From positions 2,232,001 through 2,296,000 of the forward strand of contig NZ_CP019343.1 of NCBI RefSeq assembly GCF_002117105.1: a stretch of 64,000 nt of DNA. The letters are read 5' to 3'. Below the pieces are notes generated by a model that saw only the letters and a program-made list of their open reading frames with translations, did no database searches and was not told where the DNA came from. This stretch comes from Oceanicoccus sagamiensis (GTDB taxonomy: Bacteria; Pseudomonadota; Gammaproteobacteria; Pseudomonadales; Dasaniaceae). Shown in pieces: positions 1,411 to 19,358 of the stretch; the first letter of the stretch is position 1; the number at the start of each line of letters is the position of its first letter. A program made the translations under genes and the position numbers.

Positions 1411-1683
1411 TTGCCTTTTTGGCCATCTCCCCCTGTTACCCCCCCTTCTTTCTGTTAGCCCTCTATTTATCAATCAATATTCCCTATTAGGCAATTTTCC
1501 ACCACCTGCTCTCGGGCGGTGTGAATTCTTGGCTAAACCCGATAGAATAGGGTTGTTATAGAGCTGGCTATATTGGATATGGCGGCCGATCTATAAGGTA
1601 GCCGTGATCAAGTTAATGATCAGTTAAATCAGTTGAATAGTGCTGGCTATTACCCAATTAATAATAAATGACGGAACCATTCA
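1411..1683. other. Intergenic region between tuf terminator and kinase gene
   Basis: No convincing gene is seen. The start is rich in C and T and the end is AT-rich. A weak candidate promoter for the kinase gene is TTGAAT (1633-1638), a 17-base gap, then AATTAA. A GGA-type ribosome-binding site (around 1673) precedes the ATG at 1684. Nothing here resembles an integrase site or a tRNA. Confidence 0.4.
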
Positions 1684-4239
1684 ATGTCTGACGAATTCGA
1701 CGCAAAAACCCAGATACGCGATGGCGAAGAGCCCGGCACAGCCAAGGATGCAGAAGCAGCCTTAGCTTCAGCGCCAACCAATATACGCTCCCATATTGAA
1801 GATGATGATTCAGATAAAACCGTTGTTATTGGCGGTGGTGTCAGCAGTAGCAGTGATGCTACGGTTGTATTGGGTGCTGGTGACGTACCTCAGAGTGGTG
1901 CGCCGACGCTGACATTGGGTAATACCAAGGTTATTAATGATCGCTTTGAGCTGCTTGATGTATTGGGTTCAGGCGGTATGGGTGTGGTATTCAAGGCCCT
2001 TGATCGACGTAAAGTTGAGGCCAAAGACCGTGACCCCTATGTGGCTATCAAGCTGCTAAATGATGATTTTAAAGTCCACCCTCATTCTGTTATCTCCTTA
2101 CAGCGAGAAGCCCGGCGCTCTCAAAAACTGGCGCACCCCAATATTGTAAATGTCCATGATTTTGATCGCGATGGTGATCAGGTGTTTATGACCATGGAGT
2201 GTTTGCAGGGTAAGCCGCTGGATGAGTTGATTAAAGCCAATGGCAACAAGCCTCTGGAGATGGAAGCTGCTCATCGTATTGTGAAAGATATGACGGCTGC
2301 GATGATCCACGCACATAAAAACAATATAGCTCATTCGGATTTTAAGCCGGGCAATATTTTTGTGACCGATGCGGGGCAGGGCAAGGTTCTTGATTTTGGT
2401 ATTGCCAGGGCGGTAACTTCGGGGCTGGGTGATGAGAAAAGTGGCAATGAAAATACCCTGTTTGACCCCGGCAGTCTGGGAGCCCTGACGCCCGCTTATG
2501 CCAGTAGGGAAATGCTAACCGGGCAGTTGCCCGAAATTGGTGATGATGTCTATGCCATGGGCTGTGTTGCCTACGAGCTATTTACCGGGCATCACCCGTT
2601 TAAAAAGAAAAATGCGGTCGACGCCAAAAAAGCAGGTATGCGGCCCGCAAGAATTAAGTCTCTCTCTGCAAGACAGTGGAAGGCGTTGCGCAAGGCGCTG
2701 GCCTTTAAGCGTGAAGACCGCTATGCCTCAGCAACCGATTTTTGGGAAGATTTTGATCGTCATGTCAGTCCTATCTGGTGGGTTGCAGCTCTGGTGGTAG
2801 TGATTGCTGGTGGCGCTGCCGTATGGTCAGTGGAGCAGCGCTCTCAGTTTGAGGCTGTTGATGAAGATGCTATTCGCCTGCAAGCCGATCAGGACAATGC
2901 CTATAGTAATTTGCAGGCATGGATTGCGCGGGAGCCTGTGAGTAGTGTTGAAGCGGATATACGTGCCGCTTATGAAACGTATCAGGGCATGGTAGGTGAG
3001 GCTGATGAAAAACTATTGGCCAGCAGAAAGACTATTGTTGACCTCTATATCAAGGAGGCAGGCAATTTAAGGCTGGAGAAAAAACTGGAGCTGGCTCAAT
3101 CAACGCTTGCAGCTGCATTGACATGGGACGCGGATGCTGGGCAGAGAGAGGATTATTTATCGCTGAATGCCGGTATTGTGCAAGATATAGAGGCCGAGCG
3201 TCAGCGATTAATGGCTGAACAGAAAGAGCGAGAGCGGCAGGCAGAGTTGGCCCAGGCCCAGGCTGACAAGGCCGAGCGTGCCCGTCGCTTGCAGGAGCAA
3301 CGGGCGGTTGCTGAGGCCGAAGCCAAGGCCCGCGAAGAAAGTTATCAACGCAGCTTGGCGGCGGTAGAGAGCGTTTTAAGTTGTCAGGCGTTTCCGGATT
3401 TTGATGCGTTAACTACCCAGCTGGATAATATGCGCACTCTGGACGAAGCTCGCTACCAGCAAAAAATGCCGGCTTTTAGTGAGCGTATGGCTATCTGTAT
3501 CAAGCGTATAGGCAGTAGTAACCCGGTTGCAGGTAAAGCGGCACAAACATCGGCGCTGGCGGTATTTCCCAATAGCCCATTGCTAAAAGATATTGTGATT
3601 GACCCCTGTGCCAGTTCAAAGTTAGGGCCGGGTAGTGGCCGCCGCGATGGCAAGTTCTGCTACGACTCGCTGTCAGGCTCTGTAAACGGTCCCAAAATGG
3701 TTGTCGTTCCGGGTGTAGATGGTGGCGCCTCTTATGCGGTAGGTAAATATGAAGTAACGGCAAAAGATTTTGGTGCGTATTGTAAGGCTGGCAATGACTG
3801 TGCTGGTATCACCGATACCCAAAGTGATTTGCCGGTTAGGCAGCTATCTGTGGCGCAGGCCAATGCCTATGCGCAATGGTTAAGTAGTGAGTCGGGTTTT
3901 AGTTATCGTTTGCCCACTTATACTGAGTGGCTTAATGCGGCTGTCGCTACAGGCAGGAAAAAAAATCTGGACCCCAACTGCACGGTTAAACGAGTAAACG
4001 GCACTCGCGGTGGAGATGAGCTGCGGGTAGCGGGTGGAGCTTTTAATGATTGGGGGCTTTATAACGTGATTGGCAATGTGCAGGAGTGGGCTACCGACGG
4101 GGGATCTCTGTTGGCGGCTGGTGGTCAGCATACTGATCGTCTGGCAGACACGGCTTGCTCTGTAGAGGCTAAGGTAAGCCATAGCGGCAGCCCTGATAAA
4201 ACAACAGGTTTTAGGTTGGTAAGAAAAATAGAACGCTAG
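1684..4239 (+). CDS. Membrane Ser/Thr protein kinase with C-terminal formylglycine-enzyme-like (SUMF1) domain
   Basis: This 851-aa protein has a disordered acidic N-terminus with two TVV(I/L)G motifs (DKTVVIG near 44-50, DATVVLG near 58-64). A Hanks-type kinase domain follows at about 86-360: glycine loop GSGGMGVV (96-103), ATP lysine in AIK (123), catalytic loop HSDFKPGN (217-224, Ser where Arg is usual) and DFG (237-239). A single membrane segment lies at about 364-383. An alpha-helical, Glu/Arg-rich coiled-coil stretch covers roughly 490-570. A C-terminal FGE-sulfatase/SUMF1-like domain (about 675-848) has YAVGKYEVTAKDFGAYC, YRLPTYTEWLNA, NVIGNVQEWATDGG and GFRLVR. Topology would place the kinase in the cytoplasm and the SUMF1 domain in the periplasm. 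It is followed closely by tpsB and tpsA, so it may regulate or sense secretion of that adhesin. That link is inferred from position only. Confidence 0.88.
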   Translation: MSDEFDAKTQIRDGEEPGTAKDAEAALASAPTNIRSHIEDDDSDKTVVIGGGVSSSSDATVVLGAGDVPQSGAPTLTLGNTKVINDRFELLDVLGSGGMGVVFKALDRRKVEAKDRDPYVAIKLLNDDFKVHPHSVISLQREARRSQKLAHPNIVNVHDFDRDGDQVFMTMECLQGKPLDELIKANGNKPLEMEAAHRIVKDMTAAMIHAHKNNIAHSDFKPGNIFVTDAGQGKVLDFGIARAVTSGLGDEKSGNENTLFDPGSLGALTPAYASREMLTGQLPEIGDDVYAMGCVAYELFTGHHPFKKKNAVDAKKAGMRPARIKSLSARQWKALRKALAFKREDRYASATDFWEDFDRHVSPIWWVAALVVVIAGGAAVWSVEQRSQFEAVDEDAIRLQADQDNAYSNLQAWIAREPVSSVEADIRAAYETYQGMVGEADEKLLASRKTIVDLYIKEAGNLRLEKKLELAQSTLAAALTWDADAGQREDYLSLNAGIVQDIEAERQRLMAEQKERERQAELAQAQADKAERARRLQEQRAVAEAEAKAREESYQRSLAAVESVLSCQAFPDFDALTTQLDNMRTLDEARYQQKMPAFSERMAICIKRIGSSNPVAGKAAQTSALAVFPNSPLLKDIVIDPCASSKLGPGSGRRDGKFCYDSLSGSVNGPKMVVVPGVDGGASYAVGKYEVTAKDFGAYCKAGNDCAGITDTQSDLPVRQLSVAQANAYAQWLSSESGFSYRLPTYTEWLNAAVATGRKKNLDPNCTVKRVNGTRGGDELRVAGGAFNDWGLYNVIGNVQEWATDGGSLLAAGGQHTDRLADTACSVEAKVSHSGSPDKTTGFRLVRKIER

Positions 4240-4274
4240 TGTGAGTGTTCATCATAAAAATAATCGATACAGCT

Positions 4275-4305
4275 ACAACCACTCCTGAAGGTTGGTTGTG
4301 TTTTT
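4275..4305 (+). terminator. Possible terminator or attenuator between kinase gene and tpsB
   Basis: ACAACCA (4275-4281) and TGGTTGT (4293-4299) can pair around an 11-base loop and are followed by GTTTTT. The stem is only 7 bp, so this is a weak terminator. It could partly uncouple the kinase gene from the secretion genes. Confidence 0.4.
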
Positions 4306-4327
4306 GATATCTTGTAGGTGTTTATAA

Positions 4328-6358
4328 ATGCGAAGGTTACTCGCCTTTTTTTTATTGCCCATGATGGGTACTGCGGTCGCGCAAATTGACGATCGGGGCT
4401 ATAACGTTCCACCAGCGAGCGGTCAGGGTGTTGATTTTTCTTTTGGGGAGGAATCATACCTGACGGCAGATACCGATATCCCGCCTGTTAGCGAACGTGA
4501 TGAAGGCCCCAGCATAGAAGTGACTGAATTTCAGTTTGAGTCAGTGCCGGAATTTCCCGAGTTGGGCATTACCCGGGCAGCCGTTGAAGAATTGGCGGAA
4601 AGTTTGCGTCAGGAATATAGCCAAAAGCCCAATCAGTTGGCCAGTGGTTATACCGAAAAAGAACTGCAGCTATTGGCAGAACTATTACCGACCCCTGATG
4701 ATAAGCGTTATACCTTGTCTATCTCTGAGTTAGAGCAAATTGCAGATTATATTCTTTCCGTTAGTGATGGTGATGCGCTGGGTGGTTTGCGTCAGTACGA
4801 AGTGAAAGGTTTGGTTGATTTGTTGGCGGCGCAGCGCAGCAATAAAAACCTTGAGGCCAGGGATGATTTAAAGACGATTAATTCCCTGTTGCTGGATGAC
4901 CTGATTCGATTAATCAAACGTCAGCGGGCAGAGCGAGGTATCAACTTTTATGAGTTGGAAGATATCGCGGCAAAAATTTCAGCCTTCTACCGCTCCAAAG
5001 GTATTTTCCTGGCCAAGGCCTATATTCCTGTACAGCAGGTCGAAGATGGCATAGTGACTTTCGGTATTTTGGAAGGCGTGCTAGGTGGTTTGACGGTTGC
5101 AGGTAATCAGGGTTATAGCAGCGAAAAAATTACCCAGCCATTTCAGCCCTTGGTTGGTAAGGCGGCTAATAGTGAGTCTATAGAAGAGGCGTTATATCTG
5201 GTTAATGACTATCCGGGTTTAGTCTTGCAGGGTTCTTTATCCTCCGGTGAAAATATTGGTGAAACTTCGCTGGATCTCAATGTTGTCGAAGAAAAATCCT
5301 GGCGAGCAACCGTTACTGCTGATAACCATGGCGCAGTATTTACCGGTGATAATCGATTGTTGACCATGGTTGATTTTTTTAATCCTACCGGTAGGGGAGA
5401 TATTCTTACCGTCGGCTATTTAAAATCCTGGTCGCCGTTAAATTCTGATGTTGCCGTCTTTCAATATCGTGCTCCGGTATATGATGAACGAACCTTTGTT
5501 TACGTCTCTGCCGATGTTAATGATTTTACCGTGGATGGTGATGGCGATAGAAATATTGATGATTTGAATATAGAAGGCACCAATACCAATTATACCTTGG
5601 GCATGGATCGTTGGTTTAAGCGTACCCCTGGTCTTGGTATTAGCGGCGGCTTTGCTATCACAGAAAAAGAAACCGATATTGATGCTGATGTTGACCTGCC
5701 CAGTGATGGCGACAAGGTGCAAGGTCTGGAGTTTAATTCCTCCTTTAACCAGATTAGTAAAAAGTACGAGTTAATGAATATCGCCATGATGTCGATTCAG
5801 TATGGCGACTTTAAAAACGACCAGATTGAAAACCTGAATCAAGATGAAGATTTTTATAAGTTGGCGATCGATTGGTCAACATTAAAATTGCTTAATCTAC
5901 CTTTCACGGACTATTCCTCTTATATTTTAGCTACCACCAAAATTCGCTATAGCGAATCAGGGCTGCCTGCGTTTGAGCAGCTGCCTTTGGGTGGCGCTGA
6001 TGCAGTCAGGGCGTTTGATGTCAGTGAATTTTCTGCTGATCAGGCGGGCTATATCGGGCTTGAATGGTATGTTGAATTTCCCATCACATGGATTTCAGAG
6101 TCGATAGAAGACAAGCTAAAGGTAGCCTTGTTTGTTGATGGTGCTTACGGCTCAACCAATATTGAAATCAATAGCCGCTCCGATGACTGGGTTAATATGT
6201 CGGGTGTTGGTGTTTTGTTTAAGTTTAACTGGAATGAAATGTTAGGGACAAAAATCAGCGTTGCCAAGCCGACGGGTAGTAAATCCAATATGGATGACTT
6301 CGGTGATGATGCAGATTCTGTACAAACGTTTGTTGAAGTTACGTTTGTTTACGATTGA
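4328..6358 (+). CDS. Two-partner secretion outer-membrane transporter (TpsB, ShlB/FhaC family)
   Basis: This 676-aa protein has a signal peptide (MRRLLAFFLLPMMGTAVA-Q). The POTRA_2-like domain starts near residue 200 with INFYELEDIAAKISAFYRSK and continues through the GVLGGLTVAGNQGYSSEKI region. The rest is a beta-barrel of the ShlB/FhaC type, ending in a C-terminal strand with terminal aromatic residues (FVEVTFVYD). The family secretes one large partner protein across the outer membrane. It is longer than typical TpsB proteins (about 550-590 aa) because about 180 residues of acidic, helical sequence, with no clear homology that I recognise, precede the POTRA domain. The cognate substrate gene follows after 15 bases. 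Confidence 0.9.
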   Translation: MRRLLAFFLLPMMGTAVAQIDDRGYNVPPASGQGVDFSFGEESYLTADTDIPPVSERDEGPSIEVTEFQFESVPEFPELGITRAAVEELAESLRQEYSQKPNQLASGYTEKELQLLAELLPTPDDKRYTLSISELEQIADYILSVSDGDALGGLRQYEVKGLVDLLAAQRSNKNLEARDDLKTINSLLLDDLIRLIKRQRAERGINFYELEDIAAKISAFYRSKGIFLAKAYIPVQQVEDGIVTFGILEGVLGGLTVAGNQGYSSEKITQPFQPLVGKAANSESIEEALYLVNDYPGLVLQGSLSSGENIGETSLDLNVVEEKSWRATVTADNHGAVFTGDNRLLTMVDFFNPTGRGDILTVGYLKSWSPLNSDVAVFQYRAPVYDERTFVYVSADVNDFTVDGDGDRNIDDLNIEGTNTNYTLGMDRWFKRTPGLGISGGFAITEKETDIDADVDLPSDGDKVQGLEFNSSFNQISKKYELMNIAMMSIQYGDFKNDQIENLNQDEDFYKLAIDWSTLKLLNLPFTDYSSYILATTKIRYSESGLPAFEQLPLGGADAVRAFDVSEFSADQAGYIGLEWYVEFPITWISESIEDKLKVALFVDGAYGSTNIEINSRSDDWVNMSGVGVLFKFNWNEMLGTKISVAKPTGSKSNMDDFGDDADSVQTFVEVTFVYD

Positions 6359-6373
6359 TAGACGGCTAAAAAA

Positions 6374-9300
6374 ATGAAAAATATTCGGCAGATGAAAAAA
6401 CTATCCTTGGCTATCAAAGCTAATATATTGGCGGTCTCTATTGCGTGTACGCTCTCTCCGCTGGTGGCTGCCGGGCCACAAGGTGGTGCTGTCGCAGCGG
6501 GTAGTGGTGCTATTTCTGTCAATGGAAAAACCACCTCTATCGATCAGTTGTCAAACCGTTTATCCCTCGATTGGCAAAGCTTTGATGTGGGTGCTGATGA
6601 AGTTGTGCGCTTTAATCAGCCCGGGAAAAATTCTATCGCATTAAATCGTATTTTAAGTAACAGCCCCAGTACTGTTATGGGCTTGATTGAAGCGAATGGC
6701 CGTATCATTCTTGCCAACCCTTCCGGCATATTATTTACCGAAACTTCCAGTGTTAATGTTAATGCCTTAATAGCCAGTGGCTTGGATATTGCCACTGAAG
6801 ATTTTATGAATGGTAGCCTGCTTTTCAAAAGTCTGGAAGGGACTGACGGTTTTATTGTTAATCGCGGTTTAATTAGTGCGACCACCAGTGTTTCCCTGTT
6901 AGGTGATAGTGTGGCCAACCAGGGTGCGACGGCTTTGATTCAGGCTGAGCTGGTTAATCTTAATGCCGCTTCTGAAGCACTGTTAACCTTTGATGTTGGC
7001 GGCATGATTGGTGTGAAAGTGAATAAAGAGGTTCTGCAAAATACGCAGGGTCTGGAATCGGCGGTTTCTAATAGCGGAGAAATTATTGCCGGTTCTGTTT
7101 TGGTTGCAGCTGATATCGCAGCTGATTTATTTGATAAGGCGGTGAATAACGAAGGTGTTATTTCTGCGGCGGGTATAGATACCTCTGGCGGCGTTATTCG
7201 TTTATCGGGCCGAGGTGGCGACACTTTTACTAGTGGCAGGTTGGATGTTAGTTCACAGCAGGCCGAAGGTGGTCGAGTAATCGTTGAAGGTGATCGAGTT
7301 GCCTTGGTAGCCAATGCTGTCATTAACGCTTCTGGTGTGCAGGGCGGTGGTGAGGTTCTGGTCGGTGGTGACTACAAAGGTAACAACCCTTTGATCCGTA
7401 ATTCATCGAACACCTATATAGGTATTGATGCTGATATTCAGGCCAACTCGGAGCTGGGTGGTGACGGTGGTCGGGTCATTGTCTGGGCTGATCAAACCAC
7501 TGAGTTTCATGGGACCATTGATGTGAGAGCGCTGGGTGAAACCGGTGACGGCGGCTTTATCGAAACATCGGGTGCGGAAAATTTAGTGGTATCCGCCAGT
7601 GCTTCGGCATTAATGAGTGCTAATCAGGGCGTTGCCGGGCAGTGGTACCTTGACCCTGGTGAAGTTACGATTGATACCAGTAGTGCTTTTAATGTGGTCG
7701 AGGGTGATGGCAGTAATGCTACGCCTTTTTCGTCGGCAGATGCAGATACCCAGTCCTTCCTTGATGTCACCGTTCTTGAGGCCGCACTTGGCGATGGTGG
7801 TGACGTATTCGTTGATACTACCAGCGGTGCAGCGGGCAGCGGCGACATCATTATCCTTACCGATATTGACCTCGATTCCAGTGCTGACGGCAAGTTGATA
7901 CTGGTTGCTGATAACGATATTAAAATTGGCGATAACTCTGATGATGTCACCATTAGTGATACCGGTAGTACCTCGGCAAGTATCTCGCTAGACTTTCGCG
8001 CGGATGGCTCCATCCTTCTTTATGCCGGCAGCAGTATTGATACCAAAGGTGGCGACATTCTTCTGACCGCTGACTATAACAACGATGGTGTTGACCTTAG
8101 TGCCGGGGCTGTCAGTATCGATCTATCAGGTACAGTTGTCAGCGGTGGCGGTAATATCACACTTAGCCTCGACGAGAACAACGATGGCACTGCAACAGGT
8201 TCCATCACTATTAGCAATGATATTGTGACCTCCGGTGGAAGCTTCCTGGCCAAGGCCTCATCTTTTACTGATGGTGCCAATAATGTAGCCATTAACACCA
8301 ATGGTGTTAATGGAGCTGATGGTGCTGATGGCGCTAGCGGTAATGGTGATAATGGTGTAGCCGGCAGTAATGCGGGCAGTATCACGATGCTAATTGATGG
8401 TGATATTGATATTGGCTCACTGTCTGCAGTTGGTGGCAATGCTGGTAGTGGTGGTGCGGGCGATAACAATTCTGCGGATACGGGTTATCAAGGTGGTGAC
8501 GGTGCAATAGCGGGTAGCGGTGGTGCAATTACCCTTGCCAGTGATACCGGTACGATAGAAGTAAGCTTGGGTGTCACCAGTGCGGGTGGCCTTGGAGGTA
8601 ATGGTGGTGCTGGCGGCAACGGTAACTCCAGAGACGATGTTGCCGGTGCTGGCGGCAGTGCCGGGGCCGGAGGTGCTGGAGGCAATATTTCAATCACCAC
8701 TGCTGCCGCGCTGGATGCCGACGATCGAATTAATACGGGTGCGGCGATAACTGCCAATGGTGGTGCTGGTGGTACAGGCGGTGCGGGTGCCGGTCAGGCC
8801 AATGGTGGTGGTGGTTCTGGTGCGTCTGGTGCAGGTGGTGCTGGCGGTAATGGCGGTGCTGGTGGTTTATCCGGGTCAATCGCGCTGAATGCAGTCAGTG
8901 ACGATATTCTTATTGTTGGAGGCTTGTCTGCCAATGGCGGCGGCGGTGGCGGTGGCGGACTTGGCGGCGCCCTTGTTGGTTCAGGCACCGCTGGCGTTGA
9001 CGGTAGTGATGGGGCTGATGGTAGCGGCAGTACCATTGATATTACTGCGGTGAATATACTCGTTAATACGATTAGTTCAGTCGATGGTTCCAGTGAAGTG
9101 ACCGGCGGTGGCTTAGTCACATTGACCGGCGATATTGTTACTGATGGTGCTGCCTTTACAGTCAATGCCAATGGCTTGAATGCGGCCGGGATTGATACCA
9201 GCAATGCCACCGTTAATACAGATGGTGGTGACATTACCATTCAGTCGGGCGCTTCTGTTGCTGTCACCGGTGCTATTGACACACGTGATACCGAAGGTAG

Positions 9301-12300
9301 TGGTGGTGGAGATAGCGGTGCTGTAGCAATCGAGTCAACCACCGGTGCTGTTTCAGTACTTGCTATTGATACGGACACTGCCGTCACTCCTGATGATGGC
9401 GTGGTTGATATCGATGCTGCGACTACAGTAACCATAGCGGGTGATATCAATTCAGGCTCTGCTGCCTTTACTTCCGATTCAGTTAGCTTTGATAGCTCGG
9501 CAGGTTCCGTAACAGCGGGTGCGGTGACAGTGAATGTGGGGTTAGGCGATACGGCTAGTACCAATGATTTGGGTAACATGACTTCCGCAGGCTCTATTCA
9601 AATCAATGGTGGTAGCAATGACGACCAGTTTACCCTCAGTGGGTCACTGGCCGCAGTAACAACGAATCAGATAGATGCTAATGGTGGTACTGATACGATT
9701 ATTGGTGATGGCGCCGGCAATACCTATACATTAAATACTACGGCTAATTCCCTACTTACAGAGGGTATTACCATTGTAGAAATAGAAGCTGTTAATGCGG
9801 GTGCGGCGGGTAATGATAGTATTATCGGCACCAGCAGTACTGAAAATTTTGCCATCCAAAATTCGCAAGCCGTCACTGTTTCGGGTATTGCTTTCACCAA
9901 TGTGGAATCGGTAGATGCTGGAGGAACCAATGCTGATAGCATTACTGGGCGAAGTGCCGATGAAACATTTACCATTGATGGCACGAATAATCTAACGACG
10001 GCAGGTATAGCCTTTACCGATATTGAAGCCGTGGATGCGGGTACGGATACTGGCGACACGGATAATATTGTGGGCCGCGCCGCTGATGAAACCTTTACTA
10101 TTACAGGTACGAATAATGTCACCACCGCGGGTATTGCCTTTACCGATATCGAAGCGGTGGATGCGGGCACCGATACCGGCGACACGGATAGTATTGTTGG
10201 CCAGGCGGCAGATGAAACGTTTACCATTGATGGCACAAATAATGTAACCACATCAGGTATTGCCTTTACCGATATTGAAGCCGTGGATGCGGGCACCGAT
10301 ACCAGCGATACCGATAATATTGTAGGCCGTGCCGCCGATGAAACCTTTACCATTACCGGTACAAATAATGTCACCACCGCGGGCATTGCTTTTACGGATA
10401 TTGAAGCCGTTGATGCGGGCACCGATACCAGTGATACCGATAGTATTGTGGGTCAGGCGGCGGATGAAACGTTTACTATAAATGACACAAACGACTTAAC
10501 CACATCGGGCATTGCTTTTACGGATATTGAAGCGGTGGATGCGGGCACCGATACCAGCGACACGGATAATATTGTAGGCCGTGCCGCTGATGAAACGTTT
10601 ACTATAAATGACACAAATGATTTAACCACTGCCGGTATTGTCTTTACGGATATTGAGGCCGTGGATGCAGGTACGGATACTGGCGACACGGATAATATTG
10701 TGGGCCGGGCGGCCGATGAAACCTTTACCATTACGGGTGCTAACAGCCTAACGACGGCAGGTATTGCTTTTACCGATATTGAAGCGGTGGATGCGGGCAC
10801 CGATACCAGTGACACGGATAGTATTGTTGGCCAGGCGGCAGATGAAACCTTTACCATTGATGACACAAACGATTTAACCACCGCGGGTATTGCTTTTACG
10901 GATATTGAGGCGGTGGATGCGGGCACCGATACCAGCGATACGGATAGTATTGTAGGCCGTGCCGCTGATGAAACGTTTACTATAAATGACACAAACGATT
11001 TAACCACTGCCGGTATTGTCTTTACGGATATTGAGGCGGTGGATGCGGGCACCGATACCAGCGACACGGATAATATTGTGGGTCGAGCCGCTGATGAAAC
11101 GTTTACTATAAATGACACAAATGATTTAACCACTGCCGGTATTGTCTTTACGGATATTGAGGCTGTGGATGCGGGGACCGATACCAGCGATACGGATAAT
11201 ATTGTGGGTCGAGCCGCGGATGAAACCTTTACGATTACGGGTACAAATAATGTCACCACCGCGGGCATTGCTTTTACGGATGTTGAAGCCGTTGATGCGG
11301 GCACCGATACCAGTGATACCGATAGTATTGTGGGTCGAGCCGCTGATGAAACGTTTACTATTAATGACACAAATGATTTAACCACTGCCGGTATTGTCTT
11401 TACGGATATTGAGGCCGTGGATGCGGGCACCGATACCAGCGATACGGATAATATTGTGGGTCGAGCCGCTGATGAAACCTTTACCATTACCGGTACAAAT
11501 AATGTAACCACTGCGGGCATTGCTTTTGCGGATATTGAAGCCGTTGATGCGGGCACCGATACCAGTGATACCGATAGTATTGTGGGTCAGGCGGCGGATG
11601 AAACCTTTACCATTAATGGCACAAATAATGTAACCACATCAGGCATTGCCTTTACCGATATTGAAGCGGTGGATGCGGGCACCGATACCAGCGACACGGA
11701 TAATATTGTAGGCCGTGCCGCTGATGAAACCTTTACCATTGATGACACAAATGATTTAACCACTGCCGGTATTGTCTTTACGGATATTGAGGCCGTGGAT
11801 GCGGGTACGGATACTGGCGACACGGATAATATTGTGGGCCGCGCCGCTGATGAAGCCTTTACTATTACAGGTACGAATAATGTCACCACCGCGGGTATTG
11901 CCTTTACCGATATCGAAGCGGTGGATGCGGGCACCGATACCGGTGACACGGATAGTATTGTTGGCCAGGCGGCAGATGAAACGTTTACCATTGATGGCAC
12001 AAATAATGTAACCACATCAGGTATTGCCTTTACCGATATTGAAGCCGTGGATGCGGGCACCGATACCAGCGATACCGATAATATTGTAGGCCGTGCCGCC
12101 GATGAAACCTTTACCATTACCGGTACAAATAATGTCACCACCGCGGGCATTGCTTTTACGGATATTGAAGCCGTTGATGCGGGCACCGATACCAGTGATA
12201 CCGATAGTATTGTGGGTCAGGCGGCAGATGAAACGTTTACTATAAATGACACAAACGACTTAACCACATCGGGCATTGCTTTTACGGATATTGAAGCGGT

Positions 12301-12514
12301 GGATGCGGGCACCGATACCAGCGACACGGATAATATTGTAGGCCGTGCCGCTGATGAAACGTTTACTATAAATGACACAAATGATTTAACCACTGCCGGT
12401 ATTGTCTTTACGGATATTGAGGCCGTGGATGCAGGTACGGATACTGGCGACACGGATAATATTGTGGCCGGGCGGCCGATGAAACCTTTACCATTACGGG
12501 TGCTAACAGCCTAA
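6374..12514 (+). CDS. Giant TpsA exoprotein (filamentous haemagglutinin-like), N-terminal part, frame-interrupted
   Basis: The first 2,046 codons of what should be one ~4,130-aa gene running to 18764. A signal peptide occupies about residues 1-33. The two-partner-secretion (haemagg_act) domain follows, with DWQSFDVGADEVVRFNQPG, NRILSNSPSTVMGLI and the hallmark ANPSGILF. Next are beta-helix-type Asp/Thr/Ser-rich repeats, a Gly-rich section (about 680-885) and, from residue 1196, the 42-aa tandem repeats. I see no cysteine after the signal peptide, as is common for TPS substrates. The frame ends at 12514 because one G is missing near 12474 compared with the equivalent repeat near 10710; restoring it joins this frame to the next segment. 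The likely role is adhesion or biofilm matrix. No strong ribosome-binding site is visible; ATG 6374 and ATG 6392 are both possible starts. Confidence 0.88.
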   Translation: MKNIRQMKKLSLAIKANILAVSIACTLSPLVAAGPQGGAVAAGSGAISVNGKTTSIDQLSNRLSLDWQSFDVGADEVVRFNQPGKNSIALNRILSNSPSTVMGLIEANGRIILANPSGILFTETSSVNVNALIASGLDIATEDFMNGSLLFKSLEGTDGFIVNRGLISATTSVSLLGDSVANQGATALIQAELVNLNAASEALLTFDVGGMIGVKVNKEVLQNTQGLESAVSNSGEIIAGSVLVAADIAADLFDKAVNNEGVISAAGIDTSGGVIRLSGRGGDTFTSGRLDVSSQQAEGGRVIVEGDRVALVANAVINASGVQGGGEVLVGGDYKGNNPLIRNSSNTYIGIDADIQANSELGGDGGRVIVWADQTTEFHGTIDVRALGETGDGGFIETSGAENLVVSASASALMSANQGVAGQWYLDPGEVTIDTSSAFNVVEGDGSNATPFSSADADTQSFLDVTVLEAALGDGGDVFVDTTSGAAGSGDIIILTDIDLDSSADGKLILVADNDIKIGDNSDDVTISDTGSTSASISLDFRADGSILLYAGSSIDTKGGDILLTADYNNDGVDLSAGAVSIDLSGTVVSGGGNITLSLDENNDGTATGSITISNDIVTSGGSFLAKASSFTDGANNVAINTNGVNGADGADGASGNGDNGVAGSNAGSITMLIDGDIDIGSLSAVGGNAGSGGAGDNNSADTGYQGGDGAIAGSGGAITLASDTGTIEVSLGVTSAGGLGGNGGAGGNGNSRDDVAGAGGSAGAGGAGGNISITTAAALDADDRINTGAAITANGGAGGTGGAGAGQANGGGGSGASGAGGAGGNGGAGGLSGSIALNAVSDDILIVGGLSANGGGGGGGGLGGALVGSGTAGVDGSDGADGSGSTIDITAVNILVNTISSVDGSSEVTGGGLVTLTGDIVTDGAAFTVNANGLNAAGIDTSNATVNTDGGDITIQSGASVAVTGAIDTRDTEGSGGGDSGAVAIESTTGAVSVLAIDTDTAVTPDDGVVDIDAATTVTIAGDINSGSAAFTSDSVSFDSSAGSVTAGAVTVNVGLGDTASTNDLGNMTSAGSIQINGGSNDDQFTLSGSLAAVTTNQIDANGGTDTIIGDGAGNTYTLNTTANSLLTEGITIVEIEAVNAGAAGNDSIIGTSSTENFAIQNSQAVTVSGIAFTNVESVDAGGTNADSITGRSADETFTIDGTNNLTTAGIAFTDIEAVDAGTDTGDTDNIVGRAADETFTITGTNNVTTAGIAFTDIEAVDAGTDTGDTDSIVGQAADETFTIDGTNNVTTSGIAFTDIEAVDAGTDTSDTDNIVGRAADETFTITGTNNVTTAGIAFTDIEAVDAGTDTSDTDSIVGQAADETFTINDTNDLTTSGIAFTDIEAVDAGTDTSDTDNIVGRAADETFTINDTNDLTTAGIVFTDIEAVDAGTDTGDTDNIVGRAADETFTITGANSLTTAGIAFTDIEAVDAGTDTSDTDSIVGQAADETFTIDDTNDLTTAGIAFTDIEAVDAGTDTSDTDSIVGRAADETFTINDTNDLTTAGIVFTDIEAVDAGTDTSDTDNIVGRAADETFTINDTNDLTTAGIVFTDIEAVDAGTDTSDTDNIVGRAADETFTITGTNNVTTAGIAFTDVEAVDAGTDTSDTDSIVGRAADETFTINDTNDLTTAGIVFTDIEAVDAGTDTSDTDNIVGRAADETFTITGTNNVTTAGIAFADIEAVDAGTDTSDTDSIVGQAADETFTINGTNNVTTSGIAFTDIEAVDAGTDTSDTDNIVGRAADETFTIDDTNDLTTAGIVFTDIEAVDAGTDTGDTDNIVGRAADEAFTITGTNNVTTAGIAFTDIEAVDAGTDTGDTDSIVGQAADETFTIDGTNNVTTSGIAFTDIEAVDAGTDTSDTDNIVGRAADETFTITGTNNVTTAGIAFTDIEAVDAGTDTSDTDSIVGQAADETFTINDTNDLTTSGIAFTDIEAVDAGTDTSDTDNIVGRAADETFTINDTNDLTTAGIVFTDIEAVDAGTDTGDTDNIVAGRPMKPLPLRVLTA
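8419..9030 (+). repeat. Glycine-rich coding region in TpsA
   Basis: The coding sequence here is dominated by Gly, Ala, Asn and Ser, with runs such as GGAGGTGGAG and eight consecutive Gly. Nucleotide composition is rich in GGTGGT/GGCGGC codons. It resembles Gly-rich loops in other large surface proteins and separates the TPS domain from the 42-aa array. It is low-complexity, not an exact repeat. Confidence 0.75.
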
Positions 12515-12855
12515 CGACGGCAGGTATTGCTTTTACCGATATTGAAGCGGTGGATGCGGGCACCGATACCAGTGACACGGATAGTGTTGTTGGCCAGACG
12601 GCAGACGAAACCTTTACCATTGATGGCACAAATAATGTAACCACATCAGGCATTGCCTTTACCGATATTGAAGCGGTGGATGCCGGTACGGACACCAGTG
12701 ACGCCGATAATATTGTCGGTCGTGCGGCAGATGAAACCTTCACCATTGACGGTGCTAATAACCTAACGACAGCGGGCATTGCCTTTACCGATATTGAAGC
12801 AGTAGATGCCGGGACCGATACCGGTGATGATGATACTGTTATTGGTGTTGATGGC
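9959..12855 (+). repeat. Tandem array of about 23 copies of a 126-bp (42-aa) repeat in TpsA
   Basis: Each unit reads approximately DETFTI(T/D/N)(G/D)TN, then a TT(A/S)GI(A/V)FTDIEAVDAG core, then TDT(S/G)DTD(S/N)IVG(Q/R)AA. I count 23 units; the spacing between units is 126 bases throughout except for one deleted base near 12474. Units vary at a few fixed positions (NNV or NDL; SIVGQ or NIVGR), so at least three variants are shuffled along the array. Flanking units (before 9959 and after 12855) are more diverged, as expected for expansion from the centre. Confidence 0.95.
11792..12593 (+). repeat. Near-identical second copy of an ~800-bp block of the tpsA array (first copy about 10028-10830)
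   Basis: Bases 11795 onward repeat bases 10031 onward at an offset of 1,764 bp, exactly 14 repeat units. Reading both copies side by side I find about four substitutions and one missing G over roughly 800 bases. Adjacent repeat units differ much more from each other. This points to a recent block duplication or gene conversion inside the array. Confidence 0.88.
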
Positions 12856-15800
12856 AGTGAGACCTACCAACTCAATAGCGCTAATTCCGTGACGACTTCA
12901 GGTATTGTTTTTGCAGATATTGAATCAGTCGATGCGGGTGGTGTTGGCACTGATACGGATAGCATTCTAGCGGCAGCGGGCGGCTCGAGCTTTGCATTTA
13001 GCAGTGCAGCCTCTGTTGTTGATGGCATCAGTTTTACCAATGCAGAAGCTTTTACGGGTGGCGTAGGGGCTGACACTTTCGCGACGGATGGAACCCTAAC
13101 TCTGTCAGTTGATGCGGGAGGTGGCAATGATATCTATACCGGCGTTGCAGGCTCGGAAACGATGCTTATCCAGGCCAGTGAGCATATTCTGGTTAACAAC
13201 CTTACGCTGACTGATATTGAAATTGTTAACGCGGGTGGCGTTGGTACGGATACAGTAACCGGTTTGGCGACAGATCAAACTTATACGCTGACTGGCGCTA
13301 ATGCTGTTACGGCCTCAGGCATTGCATTTAGCGAGGTCGAAGAAGTTGATGCCGGTGTCGGTACTGACGATATTGTTGGAACCTCGGCGACAGAAAGCTA
13401 TGCCCTTCAAGGTAATCGTGCTGTCACTGTTTCAGGTATTGCTTTCACCGGTATTGAAGCGGTGGCTGCCGGTGGAACCAACCCGGATAGTGTTACGGGT
13501 TTAACGACCGGAGATACTTTCACCTTAAGTGGTAGCAATGCTTTCTCAACAGCGGGAATTGATTTTACCGGTATAGAAAGTGTCGATGCAGGTGATGGCA
13601 GTGATGATATTGTCGGTACTTCAGCCACAGAAAATTATGCCATTCAGGGCACTCGCGCCGTTACTGTCTCGGGTATTGCCTTTACTAATTTGGAAGCGGT
13701 TGCTGCCGGTGGAACTAACCCGGATAGCGTTACGGGTTTGGCTGGCAGTAATACTTATACGCTTGCCGGTAGTAATGCGTTAGCAACTTCTGGTATTGAT
13801 TTTACGGGTATAGAAAGTGTTGATGCGGGCGGTGCAGGTTCTGATAATGATGAAATTGTCGGTACTTCAGCCACAGAAAATTATGCCCTTCAAGGTAGTC
13901 GTGCTGTCACTGTGTCGGGTATTGCTTTTACCAATGTTGAGTCGGTCGCTGCAGGCGGAACCAATCCTGATAGTGTTACGGGTTTGGTGGGTAGTGAGAG
14001 TTATACGCTGAATGGTGCCAATGCTGTCACAACGTCTGGCATTGCTTTTACGGGTATTGAAAGTGTTGATGCAGGCAATGGCAGTGATGATGTTGCTGGT
14101 ACTTCGGCGGCAGAAAATTATGCGCTCCAAGGTACTCGTGCTGTCACTGTGTCGGGTATTGCTTTTACGAATGTTGAAGCAGTCGCTGCAGGCGGAACCA
14201 ATCCTGATAGTGTTACGGGTTTGGCAGGTAGTGAGACTTATGCGTTGAACGGTGCTAACGCTGTCACAACGTCCGGTATTGCTTTTACGGGTGTTGAAAG
14301 TGTCGATGCAGGCAATGGCAGTGATGATATTACTGGTACTTCGGCGGCAGAAAATTATGCGCTCCAGGGTACTCGTGCAGTCTCTGTATCGGGTATTGCT
14401 TTTACGAATGTTGAAGCGGTCGCTGCAGGCGGAACCAATCCCGATAGTGTTACGGGTTTGGCGGGTAGTGAGAGTTATGCGTTGAACGGTGCCAACGCTG
14501 TCACAACGTCCGGTATTGCTTTTACGGGTGTTGAAAGTGTCGACGCAGGCAATGGCAGTGATGATATTGCTGGTACTTCGGCGGCAGAAAATTATGCGCT
14601 CCAGGGTAGTCGTGCTGTCACTGTGTCGGGTATTGCTTTTACGAATATTGAAGCGGTCGCTGCAGGCGGAACCAATCCTGATAGTGTTACGGGTTTGGCA
14701 GGTAGTGAGAGTTATGCGCTGAACGGTGCCAACGCTGTCACAACGTCCGGCATTGCTTTTACGGGTGTTGAAAGTATTGACGCAGGCAATGGCAGTGATG
14801 ATATTGCTGGTACCTCTGCTTCAGAAAATTATGTCATTAATGGCAATGGTTCTGTAACTGCTTCAGGTATTGCATTTACTAATATTGAGGCCGTTGCCGC
14901 AGGCGATGTTAATACTGATAGCGTGACGGGCCAAAATAGCAATGAAAGTTATGTGATGGACGGTGCTGGTGGTTTTGCCGCTTCGAATATCGCCTTTACT
15001 CAAATTGAGTCAGTGGCTGCCGGCACCGGTGATAGTGATACCGTGACAGCGGCGGCTAGTGGTTCAAACTTTGCTCTGGTATCGGCATCGGCAGCAACCG
15101 TTGATGGTGTTGCGTTTACTGAAGTGGATACTTTTGCGGGTGGAGCGGGTAATGATGCATTTTCTATGGTGGGCACTATTGCTACTACGATTGATGCAGG
15201 TGCTGGCGACAATACGTTTACCGGCTCCACGGCTAGTGAGAGTTACCAGTTATTAAGTGGTGACAGGGTTCAGGTCAATGGTCTGTTATTCAGTAATTTA
15301 GATCGTGTTATCGCTGGTGAAGACAGTGCCGCTACCGATACGGTGGTGGGTCAGGGAGTCAGTGAAAATTTTATGCTGCAGTCCTTTGAAAGTGTAACGG
15401 TCGGCAGTCTGACGTTTACAGAAATAGAGGCCGTTGATGCCGGTGATGCGGCGGCGGATACCGATAGTATCTCAGGTCTTGCCAGTAGTGAAAGCTATAG
15501 GCTGCTGGGGACTGGCAGTGTTGCTGTTCAGGGTATAGATTTTAGCAATATCGAGTCGGTTGATGCCGGTGGAGTGGGTACCGATACAGTGCTTGGTTTG
15601 GCTGGTGCTGAAACCTATAGCTTGCAGGGTAGCGATGGCGTCCAGGCAGTCGGTATTGATTTCGCAGGTGTGGAGGCGATCAATGCCGGTGCTGGTGACG
15701 ATACTTTCAATTGGGTCGCTGAGTCAGCCATTGCATTGGATGGGGGTGAGGGTCTCGAGGTGTCGGGAGATACCTTGGCTGGAGGCTCTAGCTACATCAT

Positions 15801-17856
15801 TAATACAGTTGATGGCGGCACAGTTGATGGCGAAAGCTTTAGCAATATAGAAAATTTAACTGGCAGCGCTGCTGCCGATAGTTTTGATCTGACTGCCGGA
15901 AGTATTGGTCAGTTGGATGGTGCGGGGGGCAATGATACCTTTGCTCTCGGTGGTGCTAGTGCAGAGGCTATTAATGGTGGCTCCGGTAGTGGGGATATGT
16001 TGCTTGGTGGTTCAGCCTATGATGTTGATGGGACTAACGCGGGTGATGTGGATGGTATCAGTTTTAGCCATATCGAAAATCTGACCGGCACTGCTGGTGA
16101 AGATAGCTTTATTTTAAGCTCAGGAAGTATTGGTCTTCTTGCTGGAGCTGACGGCGATGATCGCTTTGTGATAGTCAATGCCAGTTTCTCCGGAATTGAT
16201 GGCGGTGCGGGCAGCGATGAAATTCGCGGTGGTGCCAACTATGTTGTGAGTGCTCCTGATGCAGGCACGGTTGATGATATTGTCTTTAGCGGTGTTGAAA
16301 ATTTGATAGGTCGTGCAGGGCTTGCTGATAGCTTTGCTTTTAGTGGTTTATCCTTGCTCAGTGGTTCCGTTGATGGTCTGGGCGGCGGTGATAGCTTGAA
16401 TATTATTGCTTCTGCGGGATCCGTTAGTATCAATGTTGGCAGTAAGTTGCGCGTGAATAATGCTGATGTGGGTTTTGCGGGTATTGAGAAAGTCACCGCT
16501 AACGGCGCCAATGATACGCTGGCTGGCTTTAGCCAATATACCATTGATGGGGAGGATAGCGGCTTCATTAATGAAGACGGCATTAACTTTGTGGGTTTTG
16601 AGAACCTTACTGGCACCAATGGTGACGACACGTTTAGTTTTGCCAGTGGTGGTTCGTTATCGGGTGTGATTGATGGTCTTGATGGCACCGGTGATGAAAT
16701 CGACTATTCCTTGCTATCTGACTTGACTCTGGATATTACCGCCGACCTAACCAATATCGAGCAAGTGCGCGGTGGTGGTACAGGTTTTACTTTAATAGGT
16801 AGTGACTCTTATAACATTAGCGGTGCTAACGAGGGCATGGCCGCTGGTTTGAGATTTGTTGGTTGGTCCAACCTCATTGGTACTGAAGGCAATGATAGTT
16901 TTGTCTTTACTTCAGCGGGTAGTCTGGATGGTGTGATCTCTGGTTTGGGTGGGGTAGATACTATTGACTATTCAGCACTAGGCGCTATGACTGTTGATTT
17001 GGCGGCAGGAACAATTAACACCATAGAAAACCTGCTAGGTGCTGGCACTGACTTTGCCATTAGTAGCGTCAGCGCCGCCGAAGTCAGCGGTGACAATCAG
17101 GGTATTGCCAATGGTATCGCATTTTCAGGCTGGTCAAGTTTGCAGGGCACCAGCGGCGCAGATACTTTTGTAATGGCGGGAGGTTCTCTCAGTGGTTCTC
17201 TTGATGGTGTGGCGGGTAGTGATCAATTGATCGGTGCTGATGGTTTGGCACATAGCTTTGAATTTACTGCGGATAATACCGCTATCGTTAACAGCACCCA
17301 AGTATTCAATATTGCTAATTACCAGGGCGGTAACAGGGCAGATACCTTTGCCTTTAATAATGATGCAGCTGTGGGTGATATTAATGCGGGTGCTGGTAAT
17401 GATCAGTTTACTATTGGCGCCTCTATTGATGCGGTCTCGATTAAAGGCGGCAGCGGCGATGATGTATTTACCCTTGGCAGCGCTGCGGTGTTGGTATCGT
17501 TATCCGGTGATGCGGGGCAGGATCTGGTGCGTTTTGTGGGTGATGAGTCGAGCTGGGTCTTTACTGAAGCACAGACATCGTTAAATGGTGTGGATTTGCA
17601 GTTGATGGAGCGCTATGACGACCGATCCACGGTGGCGTTAAATCTGCTAACAACAGGAACGGCTGAATTTATTAGCCTGATGGATAGCGATGTTATTCGT
17701 ATGTTTGACCGGGAGCTGAGTTATTTGGCGGCGGGTGATCTGTTTGTCGATGCTGCTGGTATTGTGATTAATCAACTAAGCCGCAGTGGCGATGTGAGCT
17801 TACAAGCTGACTTTATTCGCAAAGCTATGGGGGGGATATTAGTGCTTCCAACTTGA
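12550..17856 (+). CDS. Giant TpsA exoprotein, middle part (after first frameshift)
   Basis: Continuation of the adhesin in the next frame, open from just after the missing G near 12474; the first start-like codon (GTG 12550) is probably not a real start because it lies inside a repeat unit. The segment finishes the 42-aa array, then carries the 79-aa composite repeats, then looser units with ENLTG...(G/A)(D/A)DSF and D-G-x-G-G-N-D-type loops (about 15690-17500). These could bind calcium as RTX-like loops do, but the exact RTX nonapeptide is not seen. It stops at TGA 17854-17856 just after a run of seven G (17829-17835). One more G would carry the frame into the C-terminal segment. No cysteine is visible. 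Confidence 0.82.
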   Translation: MDAGTDTSDTDSVVGQTADETFTIDGTNNVTTSGIAFTDIEAVDAGTDTSDADNIVGRAADETFTIDGANNLTTAGIAFTDIEAVDAGTDTGDDDTVIGVDGSETYQLNSANSVTTSGIVFADIESVDAGGVGTDTDSILAAAGGSSFAFSSAASVVDGISFTNAEAFTGGVGADTFATDGTLTLSVDAGGGNDIYTGVAGSETMLIQASEHILVNNLTLTDIEIVNAGGVGTDTVTGLATDQTYTLTGANAVTASGIAFSEVEEVDAGVGTDDIVGTSATESYALQGNRAVTVSGIAFTGIEAVAAGGTNPDSVTGLTTGDTFTLSGSNAFSTAGIDFTGIESVDAGDGSDDIVGTSATENYAIQGTRAVTVSGIAFTNLEAVAAGGTNPDSVTGLAGSNTYTLAGSNALATSGIDFTGIESVDAGGAGSDNDEIVGTSATENYALQGSRAVTVSGIAFTNVESVAAGGTNPDSVTGLVGSESYTLNGANAVTTSGIAFTGIESVDAGNGSDDVAGTSAAENYALQGTRAVTVSGIAFTNVEAVAAGGTNPDSVTGLAGSETYALNGANAVTTSGIAFTGVESVDAGNGSDDITGTSAAENYALQGTRAVSVSGIAFTNVEAVAAGGTNPDSVTGLAGSESYALNGANAVTTSGIAFTGVESVDAGNGSDDIAGTSAAENYALQGSRAVTVSGIAFTNIEAVAAGGTNPDSVTGLAGSESYALNGANAVTTSGIAFTGVESIDAGNGSDDIAGTSASENYVINGNGSVTASGIAFTNIEAVAAGDVNTDSVTGQNSNESYVMDGAGGFAASNIAFTQIESVAAGTGDSDTVTAAASGSNFALVSASAATVDGVAFTEVDTFAGGAGNDAFSMVGTIATTIDAGAGDNTFTGSTASESYQLLSGDRVQVNGLLFSNLDRVIAGEDSAATDTVVGQGVSENFMLQSFESVTVGSLTFTEIEAVDAGDAAADTDSISGLASSESYRLLGTGSVAVQGIDFSNIESVDAGGVGTDTVLGLAGAETYSLQGSDGVQAVGIDFAGVEAINAGAGDDTFNWVAESAIALDGGEGLEVSGDTLAGGSSYIINTVDGGTVDGESFSNIENLTGSAAADSFDLTAGSIGQLDGAGGNDTFALGGASAEAINGGSGSGDMLLGGSAYDVDGTNAGDVDGISFSHIENLTGTAGEDSFILSSGSIGLLAGADGDDRFVIVNASFSGIDGGAGSDEIRGGANYVVSAPDAGTVDDIVFSGVENLIGRAGLADSFAFSGLSLLSGSVDGLGGGDSLNIIASAGSVSINVGSKLRVNNADVGFAGIEKVTANGANDTLAGFSQYTIDGEDSGFINEDGINFVGFENLTGTNGDDTFSFASGGSLSGVIDGLDGTGDEIDYSLLSDLTLDITADLTNIEQVRGGGTGFTLIGSDSYNISGANEGMAAGLRFVGWSNLIGTEGNDSFVFTSAGSLDGVISGLGGVDTIDYSALGAMTVDLAAGTINTIENLLGAGTDFAISSVSAAEVSGDNQGIANGIAFSGWSSLQGTSGADTFVMAGGSLSGSLDGVAGSDQLIGADGLAHSFEFTADNTAIVNSTQVFNIANYQGGNRADTFAFNNDAAVGDINAGAGNDQFTIGASIDAVSIKGGSGDDVFTLGSAAVLVSLSGDAGQDLVRFVGDESSWVFTEAQTSLNGVDLQLMERYDDRSTVALNLLTTGTAEFISLMDSDVIRMFDRELSYLAAGDLFVDAAGIVINQLSRSGDVSLQADFIRKAMGGILVLPT
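13380..14940 (+). repeat. Composite 237-bp (79-aa) tandem repeats in TpsA
   Basis: About six to seven units alternate two related halves: one with GTSAxENYALQGxRAVTVSG and one with TGLAGSESYALNGANAVTTSG, each followed by IAFTxxE. Successive units from about 14000 to 14800 are close to identical. Both halves share the GIAFT-(D/N/G)-(I/V)-E core with the 42-aa array, so the two families have a common origin. A single diverged pair of the same type (STENFAIQ..., near 9838) sits immediately before the 42-aa array. Confidence 0.88.
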
Positions 17857-18764
17857 CCCTGGAAAGCGGGGGCGATGTTGAGTTGGGTGTAGTCGCTGCT
17901 TCTGGAGTAGCTATTAGTGCTGATGGCCTGATCAATATAGCGCAAGTGGATACCAGTGGAGATCTGGTGCTTACTCAATCGAGTGGTGTTCAGTTGGGTG
18001 CTGTATCGGCATCGGATGTCAGCATCAGCAGTGAAGGTGAGGTCAATGTCGATGCAGTGGATGCTACCGGAGACTTGCTGGTTTCGCAGGCAGGCAGTGT
18101 TAGCTTAGGGGCTGGCCCTATGCCTATGGTGGCGGCAGCTAGCATTGATATTACTGCGCAGCGTGATGTTTCGGTGGCTACGTCGGGTGCTGGTCCAGTT
18201 TCTATCAATAGTAGCCAGGGTGATATTGAGGTAATCAGTACCGCGGGTCTGGATCTGGCTGAGGTTCGTACCCAGGGCAATAACGCCAGTATCAATATTC
18301 AGGCGAAAGAGAGTATCCGGCTGGCTGCAGTTGCAACGCAGTCGCGTACTAATGGTGTTGTGTCTATTCGCACGGCAGAGGGCAGTATACAGGCTAGCCG
18401 TGACCTGGGGGCTGCGGTCAATGGTGAGGGGGATGTGACCTCGGGCAGTATCAATCTGGATTCGCCTTTTGGTCAGGTGGGTACGTTTGTGCGCCCAATC
18501 CTGATTAATACAGGCAGTGCGGCGACTATTCTTAATGCTCAGCCGTTTGTGAGTGGTCAGGGTGCTACGCCTGCTCCGGTAGTTACCGGTGGTGTGCTGG
18601 GTTCCAGTGCTTTGGATGTCGCCTCGTCCTCAGGTTTGAGTAGTGCGGTTCAAACCATGATTGATACCCTGGCTGATATTGATCCCGGCGTGTTCAAAAA
18701 TGATGAGTTGGTGGAGCGTGATAGTACTTCATTGGCTCTGCCGGACTCGCAGCAGTCAGAATAA
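17853..18764 (+). CDS. Giant TpsA exoprotein, C-terminal part (after second frameshift)
   Basis: This 303-aa frame continues the adhesin. Read upstream of its nominal TTG start it gives GGDISASNLTLESGGDVELG, a typical filamentous-haemagglutinin motif that spans the frame junction, so it is not an independent gene. It has short beta-helix repeats (SGDLVLTQSSGVQLG, TGDLLVSQAGSVSLG, NNASINIQAKESIRLAAV) and then a Ser/Ala-rich tail ending at TAA 18762-18764. No C-terminal anchor, PEP-CTERM motif or cysteine hook is visible, so how the protein stays on the surface is unknown. Confidence 0.82.
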   Translation: MTLESGGDVELGVVAASGVAISADGLINIAQVDTSGDLVLTQSSGVQLGAVSASDVSISSEGEVNVDAVDATGDLLVSQAGSVSLGAGPMPMVAAASIDITAQRDVSVATSGAGPVSINSSQGDIEVISTAGLDLAEVRTQGNNASINIQAKESIRLAAVATQSRTNGVVSIRTAEGSIQASRDLGAAVNGEGDVTSGSINLDSPFGQVGTFVRPILINTGSAATILNAQPFVSGQGATPAPVVTGGVLGSSALDVASSSGLSSAVQTMIDTLADIDPGVFKNDELVERDSTSLALPDSQQSE

Positions 18765-18774
18765 GGGTGTTTTT

Positions 18775-18811
18775 TGCTGCATCTATATATAGGTACTATA
18801 TAGATGCAGCA
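18775..18811. terminator. Perfect 15-bp inverted repeat after tpsA
   Basis: TGCTGCATCTATATA (18775-18789) pairs perfectly with TATATAGATGCAGCA (18797-18811) around a 7-base loop, and TAGATGCAG is repeated just after. It lies 10 bases past the tpsA stop. There is no clear U-tract behind it on the plus strand (five T precede it), so it may be a transcript-stabilising hairpin or a weak terminator. Confidence 0.55.
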
Positions 18812-18944
18812 TAGATGCAGTACTCCTCTGTTGGTGCTTTCCTTCTATCTTATTGTTTTTTAAAGATATTTTTATATCAGAGCTGGGCTGCCAGCCGGTT
18901 TTGGTACAAATGCCCATAACACTACAAAATAGATAGAAATAGTG

Positions 18945-19043: not shown

Positions 19044-19358
<315 letters not shown>

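Follow-up and report, generated by a model that had tools for sequence, protein, structure and literature searches.

The kinase, TpsB and TpsA genes between tuf and rpsJ

We analysed a 64-kb stretch of the Oceanicoccus sagamiensis chromosome (hereafter the window; bases 2,232,001-2,296,000 of a single 4.47 Mb contig, completeness 100, genome G000). Between tuf and rpsJ it carries a Ser/Thr kinase gene followed by genes for the transporter TpsB and the passenger TpsA of a two-partner secretion (TPS, type Vb) system. From sequence comparison, we read the kinase as a PpkA-like kinase of the type that acts in threonine phosphorylation in type VI secretion systems (T6SS), recurrently paired with a TPS adhesin, with or without a T6SS; the initial annotation did not mention this T6SS kinship. 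The initial annotation had described a kinase-SUMF1 gene, a TpsB and one giant TpsA running in one direction with small gaps. Kinase and TpsB were confirmed by Pfam, and all three genes lie on the + strand, 88 and 15 bp apart; the giant TpsA proved to be three open frames in frames 2, 1 and 3, separated by two breaks.

1684..4239, + strand: Ser/Thr kinase with SUMF1-like C-terminus, 851 aa, open throughout (Pfam Pkinase, FGE-sulfatase)
1813..1866, + strand: N-terminal stretch ahead of the kinase domain with DKTV and DATV motifs, like TssL N-termini
2770..2832, + strand: hydrophobic segment, presumed transmembrane helix (sequence judged by eye)
3727..4221, + strand: SUMF1/FGE-like domain, presumed periplasmic
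4328..6358, + strand: TpsB outer-membrane transporter, 676 aa, long region before the POTRA match (Pfam ShlB PF03865, POTRA_2 PF08479)
6374..12514, + strand (frame 2): TpsA open frame 1, 2046 aa, N-terminal part
6476..7207, + strand: TPS secretion domain (PF05860, residues 35-278, E 3.3e-26; TIGR01901, E 1.3e-21)
9959..12822, + strand: 126-bp tandem repeat array, 22.7 copies, spanning frame break 1
12550..17856, + strand (frame 1): TpsA open frame 2, 1768 aa, start codon set mechanically
13365..14905, + strand: 237-bp tandem repeat array, 6.5 copies
17853..18764, + strand (frame 3): TpsA open frame 3, 303 aa, conserved C-terminus

The kinase carries the Hanks-type catalytic motifs (PF00069), and the columns of GxGGMG, K123, HxDxKPxN and DFG are invariant in alignment A2. 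In the same alignment, D44 of the N-terminal stretch is nearly invariant and T46 invariant. The C-terminal domain has an FGE/SUMF1 fold; FGE-sulfatase is the Pfam match found there, in place of a vWA domain, for which the kinase gave no match at E 0.001. Human formylglycine-generating enzyme (FGE) employs a catalytic cysteine pair, 336/341. The alignment of the SUMF1 domain (A4) contains one invariant Cys after GNxQE. No NCBIfam family scored above its cut-off for the kinase, and in a fold search of the modelled region the helical half was barely covered. The SUMF1 domain may resemble TagR; TagR was absent among the matches listed in the searches, which is no evidence against such a likeness. 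The protein is presumed to reside in the inner membrane with a periplasmic C-terminal end. In the kinase-domain tree the window kinase forms a group with G067 and G030 (99/96), the bootstrap not having settled, and the topology may fit one or several origins of the trio. Elsewhere in G000, a distant kinase-SUMF1 paralogue of 734 aa is encoded divergently from a protein with FHA matches (L149:7224-10685; G000:C1:4297224-4300685).

The arrangement downstream is that of a type Vb system, with a TpsB formed by POTRA and a ShlB/FhaC barrel, its gene adjoining tpsA, and a TPS secretion domain at the N-terminus of TpsA. The TpsB profile matches CdiB structures, and the TpsB model is strand-rich with a mean predicted local distance difference test (pLDDT) score of 73.8, residues 1-56 scoring under 50. 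TpsB of G000 and of G003, a genome of the same genus, are 70% identical, a value within the 35-91% spanned by 11 frame pairs matched in another region, as vertical descent would lead one to expect; deep forks of the TpsB tree did not resolve. A second TpsB/TpsA pair of G000, with its TpsB split over two frames and no kinase beside it, is located at L143:7892-12394 (G000:C1:775892-780394). G002 and G003 have similar pairs with the same neighbouring genes, and G006 has such a TpsB at a contig edge.

The first TpsA break lies near 12.47 kb, inside the 126-bp tandem repeat, and the second near 17.83 kb, where seven G follow one another, so the assembly holds no intact single passenger gene. These breaks may represent assembly error, decay or phase variation. 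That both are sequencing errors in a whole gene is, in our judgement, an even call: both fall in G-rich runs or repeats and the conserved C-terminus is located in the third frame, but the genome is one contig of full completeness whose reads are not visible, and the split TpsB of its second TPS locus may be real. The third frame has no Pfam or NCBIfam match; all 8 aligned C-termini share the stretch AV[QNH]...DP[AG][IV]F close to the end of TpsA. Between 1300 and 6700, 13 promoter-like sites were observed versus 9.0 (standard deviation 3.1) in shuffled sequence, and the scan therefore places no promoter for the trio.

Co-occurrence of kinase and TPS genes among relatives and across the class

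The co-occurrence of kinase and TpsB in related genomes, which the initial annotation had named as a check on its idea of a functional unit, is borne out across the class. In a sample of 369 genomes (own included), TpsB matched at E 1e-60 or better in 21 and the C-terminal half of the kinase at <1e-48 in 32, the latter cut-off being set after seeing the gap from 8e-49 to 9e-31 in the list. The kinase is present in 19 of the 21 TpsB genomes (18/20 without our own) versus 13 of the 348 others, and co-occurrence by family is 15/17. Fisher's test gives P ~2e-20, a value in which relatedness is still contained and whose true strength is lower. Six of the 13 kinase genomes without TpsB at E 1e-60 have TPS genes near the kinase (G100, G221, G257, G259, G423, G453). 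Viewed from TpsB, 23 places outside our own genome show the kinase within ~17 kb in eight and Hcp-VgrG directly downstream in seven. TpsB stands directly upstream of Hcp-VgrG effector islands at L233, L235, L241, L246, L250, L253 and L254, and a TpsA-labelled frame precedes TpsB in 5/7 of them.

A search with the kinase gave some match in 82 of 95 genomes (own included), from which 19 of the best-matching others, not a random draw, were fetched. The trio recurs in the same order and on one strand in six of these 19 (G003, G016, G024, G030, G064, G067), with TpsB split over two frames in G067 and the kinase broken in G003. In five, the kinase lies within a T6SS cluster and no TPS genes adjoin it (G039, G043, G075, G077, G079), G057 has TpsB-TpsA ~2 kb before the kinase, i.e., in the opposite order, and the remaining seven contain neither TPS nor T6SS genes in the fetched stretch. 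A TpsB profile built from eight TpsB proteins yielded 20 named loci (14 from Microbulbifer, two from Exilibacterium, one each from Endozoicomonas and a Pseudomonadales metagenome-assembled genome, and two of one BD1-7 isolate), with gene labels carried by tblastn from Pfam-checked representatives. Every one of the 20 has the kinase upstream and TpsA downstream of TpsB on the same strand. L163, L164 and L166 may be the loci of G016, G030 and G024, so the two samples may overlap. G257, from outside the window's taxonomic order, also carries the kinase-TpsB-TpsA tandem, here after TssL-TssM. Thus, the trio is a recurrent unit, as initially proposed. Across the class, order and orientation vary, the genes being divergent in G133, G212, G213, G226, G273 and G338.

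T6SS genes lie beside the trio in 17/20 named loci, with none in view at L164, L168 and L170. All 14 Microbulbifer loci encode VgrG divergently from the kinase, 11 of them also a labelled Hcp, and TagH, TssK, TssL and TssM are found at L155, L160 and L163. A DUF6931 protein adjoins VgrG in the T6SS islands beside the trio (L166:684-1262, Pfam-checked, and like places in other Microbulbifer loci). The kinase is thus encoded with a T6SS in many relatives but not in G000, whose genome gave no match to TssK, TssC or Hcp. G003 gave no match to TssC or Hcp; the five T6SS-bearing genomes searched for these two markers have both. Among the 19 class genomes with kinase and TpsB, 12, from nine families, have no match to TssK, the sole T6SS marker searched there. 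Judged from these gene contents, a T6SS is not needed for the kinase-TPS pairing, its absence in most genomes being judged by TssK. In several TssK-negative genomes a PP2C phosphatase and an FHA-nucleotide cyclase are neighbours (Pfam-checked examples). At loci L226-L230, L252, L263 and L264, where no T6SS gene is in view, an FHA-nucleotide cyclase and/or PP2C is clustered with TPS genes and a long SUMF1 kinase; TssK, searched for in the genomes of L226-L230 and L252, gave no match.

Proposed function and alternative explanations

The kinase resembles the T6SS threonine phosphorylation pathway (PpkA-PppA-Fha) in three respects: it is a Ser/Thr kinase, presumably membrane-bound with a periplasmic part, its relatives lie in TagH-TssJKLM-TagF-PppA clusters, and DxT motifs occur at both the kinase and TssL N-termini. 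In that pathway, the periplasmic activator is TagR or RtkS. Here, in contrast, a SUMF1-fold C-terminal end belongs to the same chain and the kinase gene is followed by TpsB-TpsA in a genome without detected T6SS genes. Pseudomonas aeruginosa PpkA carries a C-terminal vWA domain (PMC1262709), a position that FGE-sulfatase takes in the window kinase. With TPS adhesins such as FhaC/FhaB and CdrB/CdrA, the locus shares the TPS domain with an NPXG-type N-terminal model, the ShlB/POTRA transporter and a long repeat-rich passenger. It differs from them in that a Ser/Thr kinase gene leads the set and TpsB has a long conserved pre-POTRA region. Passages on regulators in a TPS review (PMC5422565) list two-component, cyclic-di-GMP, phosphate, iron systems and the like, and name no Ser/Thr kinase. 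Further related literature comprises PMC10482370, PMC6082577, PMC6565705, PMC6657622, PMC6423157, PMC3953482 and PMC2847200. Among the titles and abstract openings listed, most subscription papers lying outside this scope, there was no report of a kinase-TPS pairing. Both TPS systems and PpkA-type kinases are thus known, while their pairing, kept without a detected T6SS, was not found in the literature searched.

We propose, at about even confidence, that the trio forms a two-part envelope module in which a TpsB/TpsA adhesin is joined by a PpkA-like inner-membrane kinase that reads the state of the TPS system. TpsB and TpsA would place a giant repeat-rich adhesin on the cell surface. Kinase and activator-like SUMF1 fold would be united in one polypeptide, whose periplasmic SUMF1 end would monitor TpsB or TpsA (their transit, retention or ligand binding). 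The kinase would then phosphorylate D-K/R/A-T motifs, its own N-terminus included, and an FHA-domain protein would read this mark. Where relatives have a T6SS, TagH/TssL would act as this reader and the outcome would be T6SS assembly where cells touch; several relatives without T6SS would perhaps use the nearby FHA-nucleotide cyclase instead. More tentatively, the kinases may constitute a T6SS-independent family gated by the state of the TPS transporter or adhesin via the periplasmic SUMF1 domain, with FHA proteins (TagH or the FHA-nucleotide cyclase) as interchangeable outputs. The kinase-TPS link is genetic, and it is its direction, like the readers in G000, that we infer.

Several observations weigh against a module of this kind. 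Seven of the 13 kinase genomes without TpsB at 1e-60 show no TPS genes near the kinase in the fetched stretch, some at contig ends, and at 8/23 TpsB places, of which four are on 6-11 kb contigs, no kinase and no Hcp-VgrG is visible. The kinase of G039 and G077 is separated from a close TpsB-TpsA pair by 200 kb or lies on another contig. The trio itself contains no PppA or FHA gene, the G000 genome not having been searched for PppA. TpsA is frame-broken in G000, and G002 and G006 have no close trio match, so the trio can be lost. Moreover, the presumed membrane topology was judged by eye, and any action of kinase and TPS on each other would be deduced from gene arrangement.

Two alternatives are each rated rather unlikely. 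The kinase might serve the T6SS only, with the TPS system as a T6SS-linked contact adhesin, and the trio of this genus would be a decaying remnant left after the T6SS was lost. The T6SS genes beside most named trios, the missing TssK, TssC and Hcp matches in G000, the doubly broken TpsA and the lack of close kinase and TpsB matches in G002 and G006 would fit such a course. However, the kinase and TpsB frames are open, the divergence of TpsB from its G003 counterpart is unremarkable, and kinase and TpsB persist together without a TssK match in nine families. The last point also speaks against kinase and TPS being mere travelling neighbours, for example in contact-competition clusters, without mutual action. 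This possibility, which we rate similarly low, draws on the clustering of both with Hcp-VgrG islands and on their varying order and orientation across the class, but the tandem order is kept in all 20 named loci.

A contact-dependent inhibition (CDI) system with a C-terminal toxin is very improbable. The locus shares the TpsB/TpsA secretion route with CdiB/CdiA, including the profile match to CdiB structures; against this, the TpsA C-terminus is conserved, its frame without a family match, and no toxin domain or immunity gene was found, rpsJ being the next gene after TpsA. The CDI toxin was rejected on the conserved C-terminus.

If the envelope module proposed above holds true, a Ser/Thr kinase would be added to the known TPS regulators. 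What triggers T6SS threonine-phosphorylation kinases and how bacteria sense cell contact are open questions, and the class-wide kinase-adhesin pairing is a candidate for the missing kinase input, for which genomes without a detected T6SS offer a clean setting. That many related bacteria keep the pair, some without detected T6SS genes, suggests that adhesion at the cell surface and signalling by the kinase may be connected.

The tuf-rpsJ site and its history

The trio lies between two near-universal genes, tuf and rpsJ, and its surroundings have the following features.

134..1357, + strand: tuf (EF-Tu), left neighbour (Pfam GTP_EFTU domains)
1380..1409, + strand: terminator-like hairpin 3' of tuf, 13 pairs and a T tail, also in the empty site of G002/G006
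1412..18930, no strand: insert when compared with G006, whose tuf-rpsJ site is empty (blastn)
18945..18973, + strand: rpsJ promoter-like site, TTGACA-17-TAGAAT (sigma-70 scan, conservation)
19047..19358, + strand: rpsJ (S10), right neighbour (Pfam Ribosomal_S10)

DNA shared with G006 stops at 1411 and restarts at 18931, close to the edges 1411 and 18944 given initially; the trio is thus neatly bounded by a terminator and a promoter that both sites have in common. Both elements had been postulated in the initial annotation and were located. The promoter-like site matches sigma-70 at 11/12 positions; as one such site was found versus 1.1 expected from shuffles, its weight comes from conservation, a TTGAC-type site preceding rpsJ in G003 and in all nine relatives with a short gap (G002, G006, G008, G018, G032, G039, G054, G064, G077). 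Their tuf-rpsJ gaps measure 204-690 bp, with the first few rpsJ codons included, and provide the compact sites anticipated in relatives. A search with rpsJ gave a match in 83/95 genomes (own included); apart from those of G000 and G003, 28 rpsJ loci were fetched, and tuf, or a part of it at a contig edge, lies ≤1.5 kb upstream in 22 but not in the other six. Among the sites viewed, only G000 and G003 carry the trio between tuf and rpsJ, so the position, initially taken as part of the unit, would appear to be an incidental permissive site.

The claimed lack of an integrase, tRNA or direct repeat at the borders was upheld. No tRNA was found within the window, the longest direct repeat across the borders is 10 bp versus a mean of 8.8 in 30 shuffles, and no integrase-type match occurs in the three genes or in 10 of the 13 antisense frames of at least 100 aa, the ones scanned, which gave sub-cut-off matches to small unrelated families only. 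GC content offers no contrast, the insert (0.44-0.54 per 1.5 kb) straddling the flanks (0.45-0.49). A recent mobile insertion or integrase-borne island was rejected on these grounds. A duplicated tuf 3' end in G003 was likewise rejected as an integration scar, since the other tuf copy of G003 has the same duplication.

The phylogeny also suggests an older gain rather than a fresh insertion. A tree of ~1.2 kb of rpsJ-rplC DNA joins G000 to the empty G002 and G006 (94.5% identity, support 100/100) and leaves G003 outside this group, nesting empty sites within trio-bearing lineages. G002 and G006 (completeness 92 and 96) have no close match to the kinase or the trio TpsB elsewhere. As the simplest reading, this short tree suggests one gain before the split of G000 and G003 with later loss in G002/G006; two separate gains at this site may also have occurred. 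In G002 and G006 (L102, L103), the site is occupied by ~510 bp that bear no relation to the trio. Because this filler matched no part of the trio by blastn in G006, the loss there rests on the tree. As the G003 assembly divides each of fusA, rimO and the kinase among different frames (L041, L042, L144), frame breaks in G003 are poor evidence. Further downstream in the window, the open frame 47812-48387 contains, at 48202-48331, short tandem repeats whose periods range from 15 to 33 bp.

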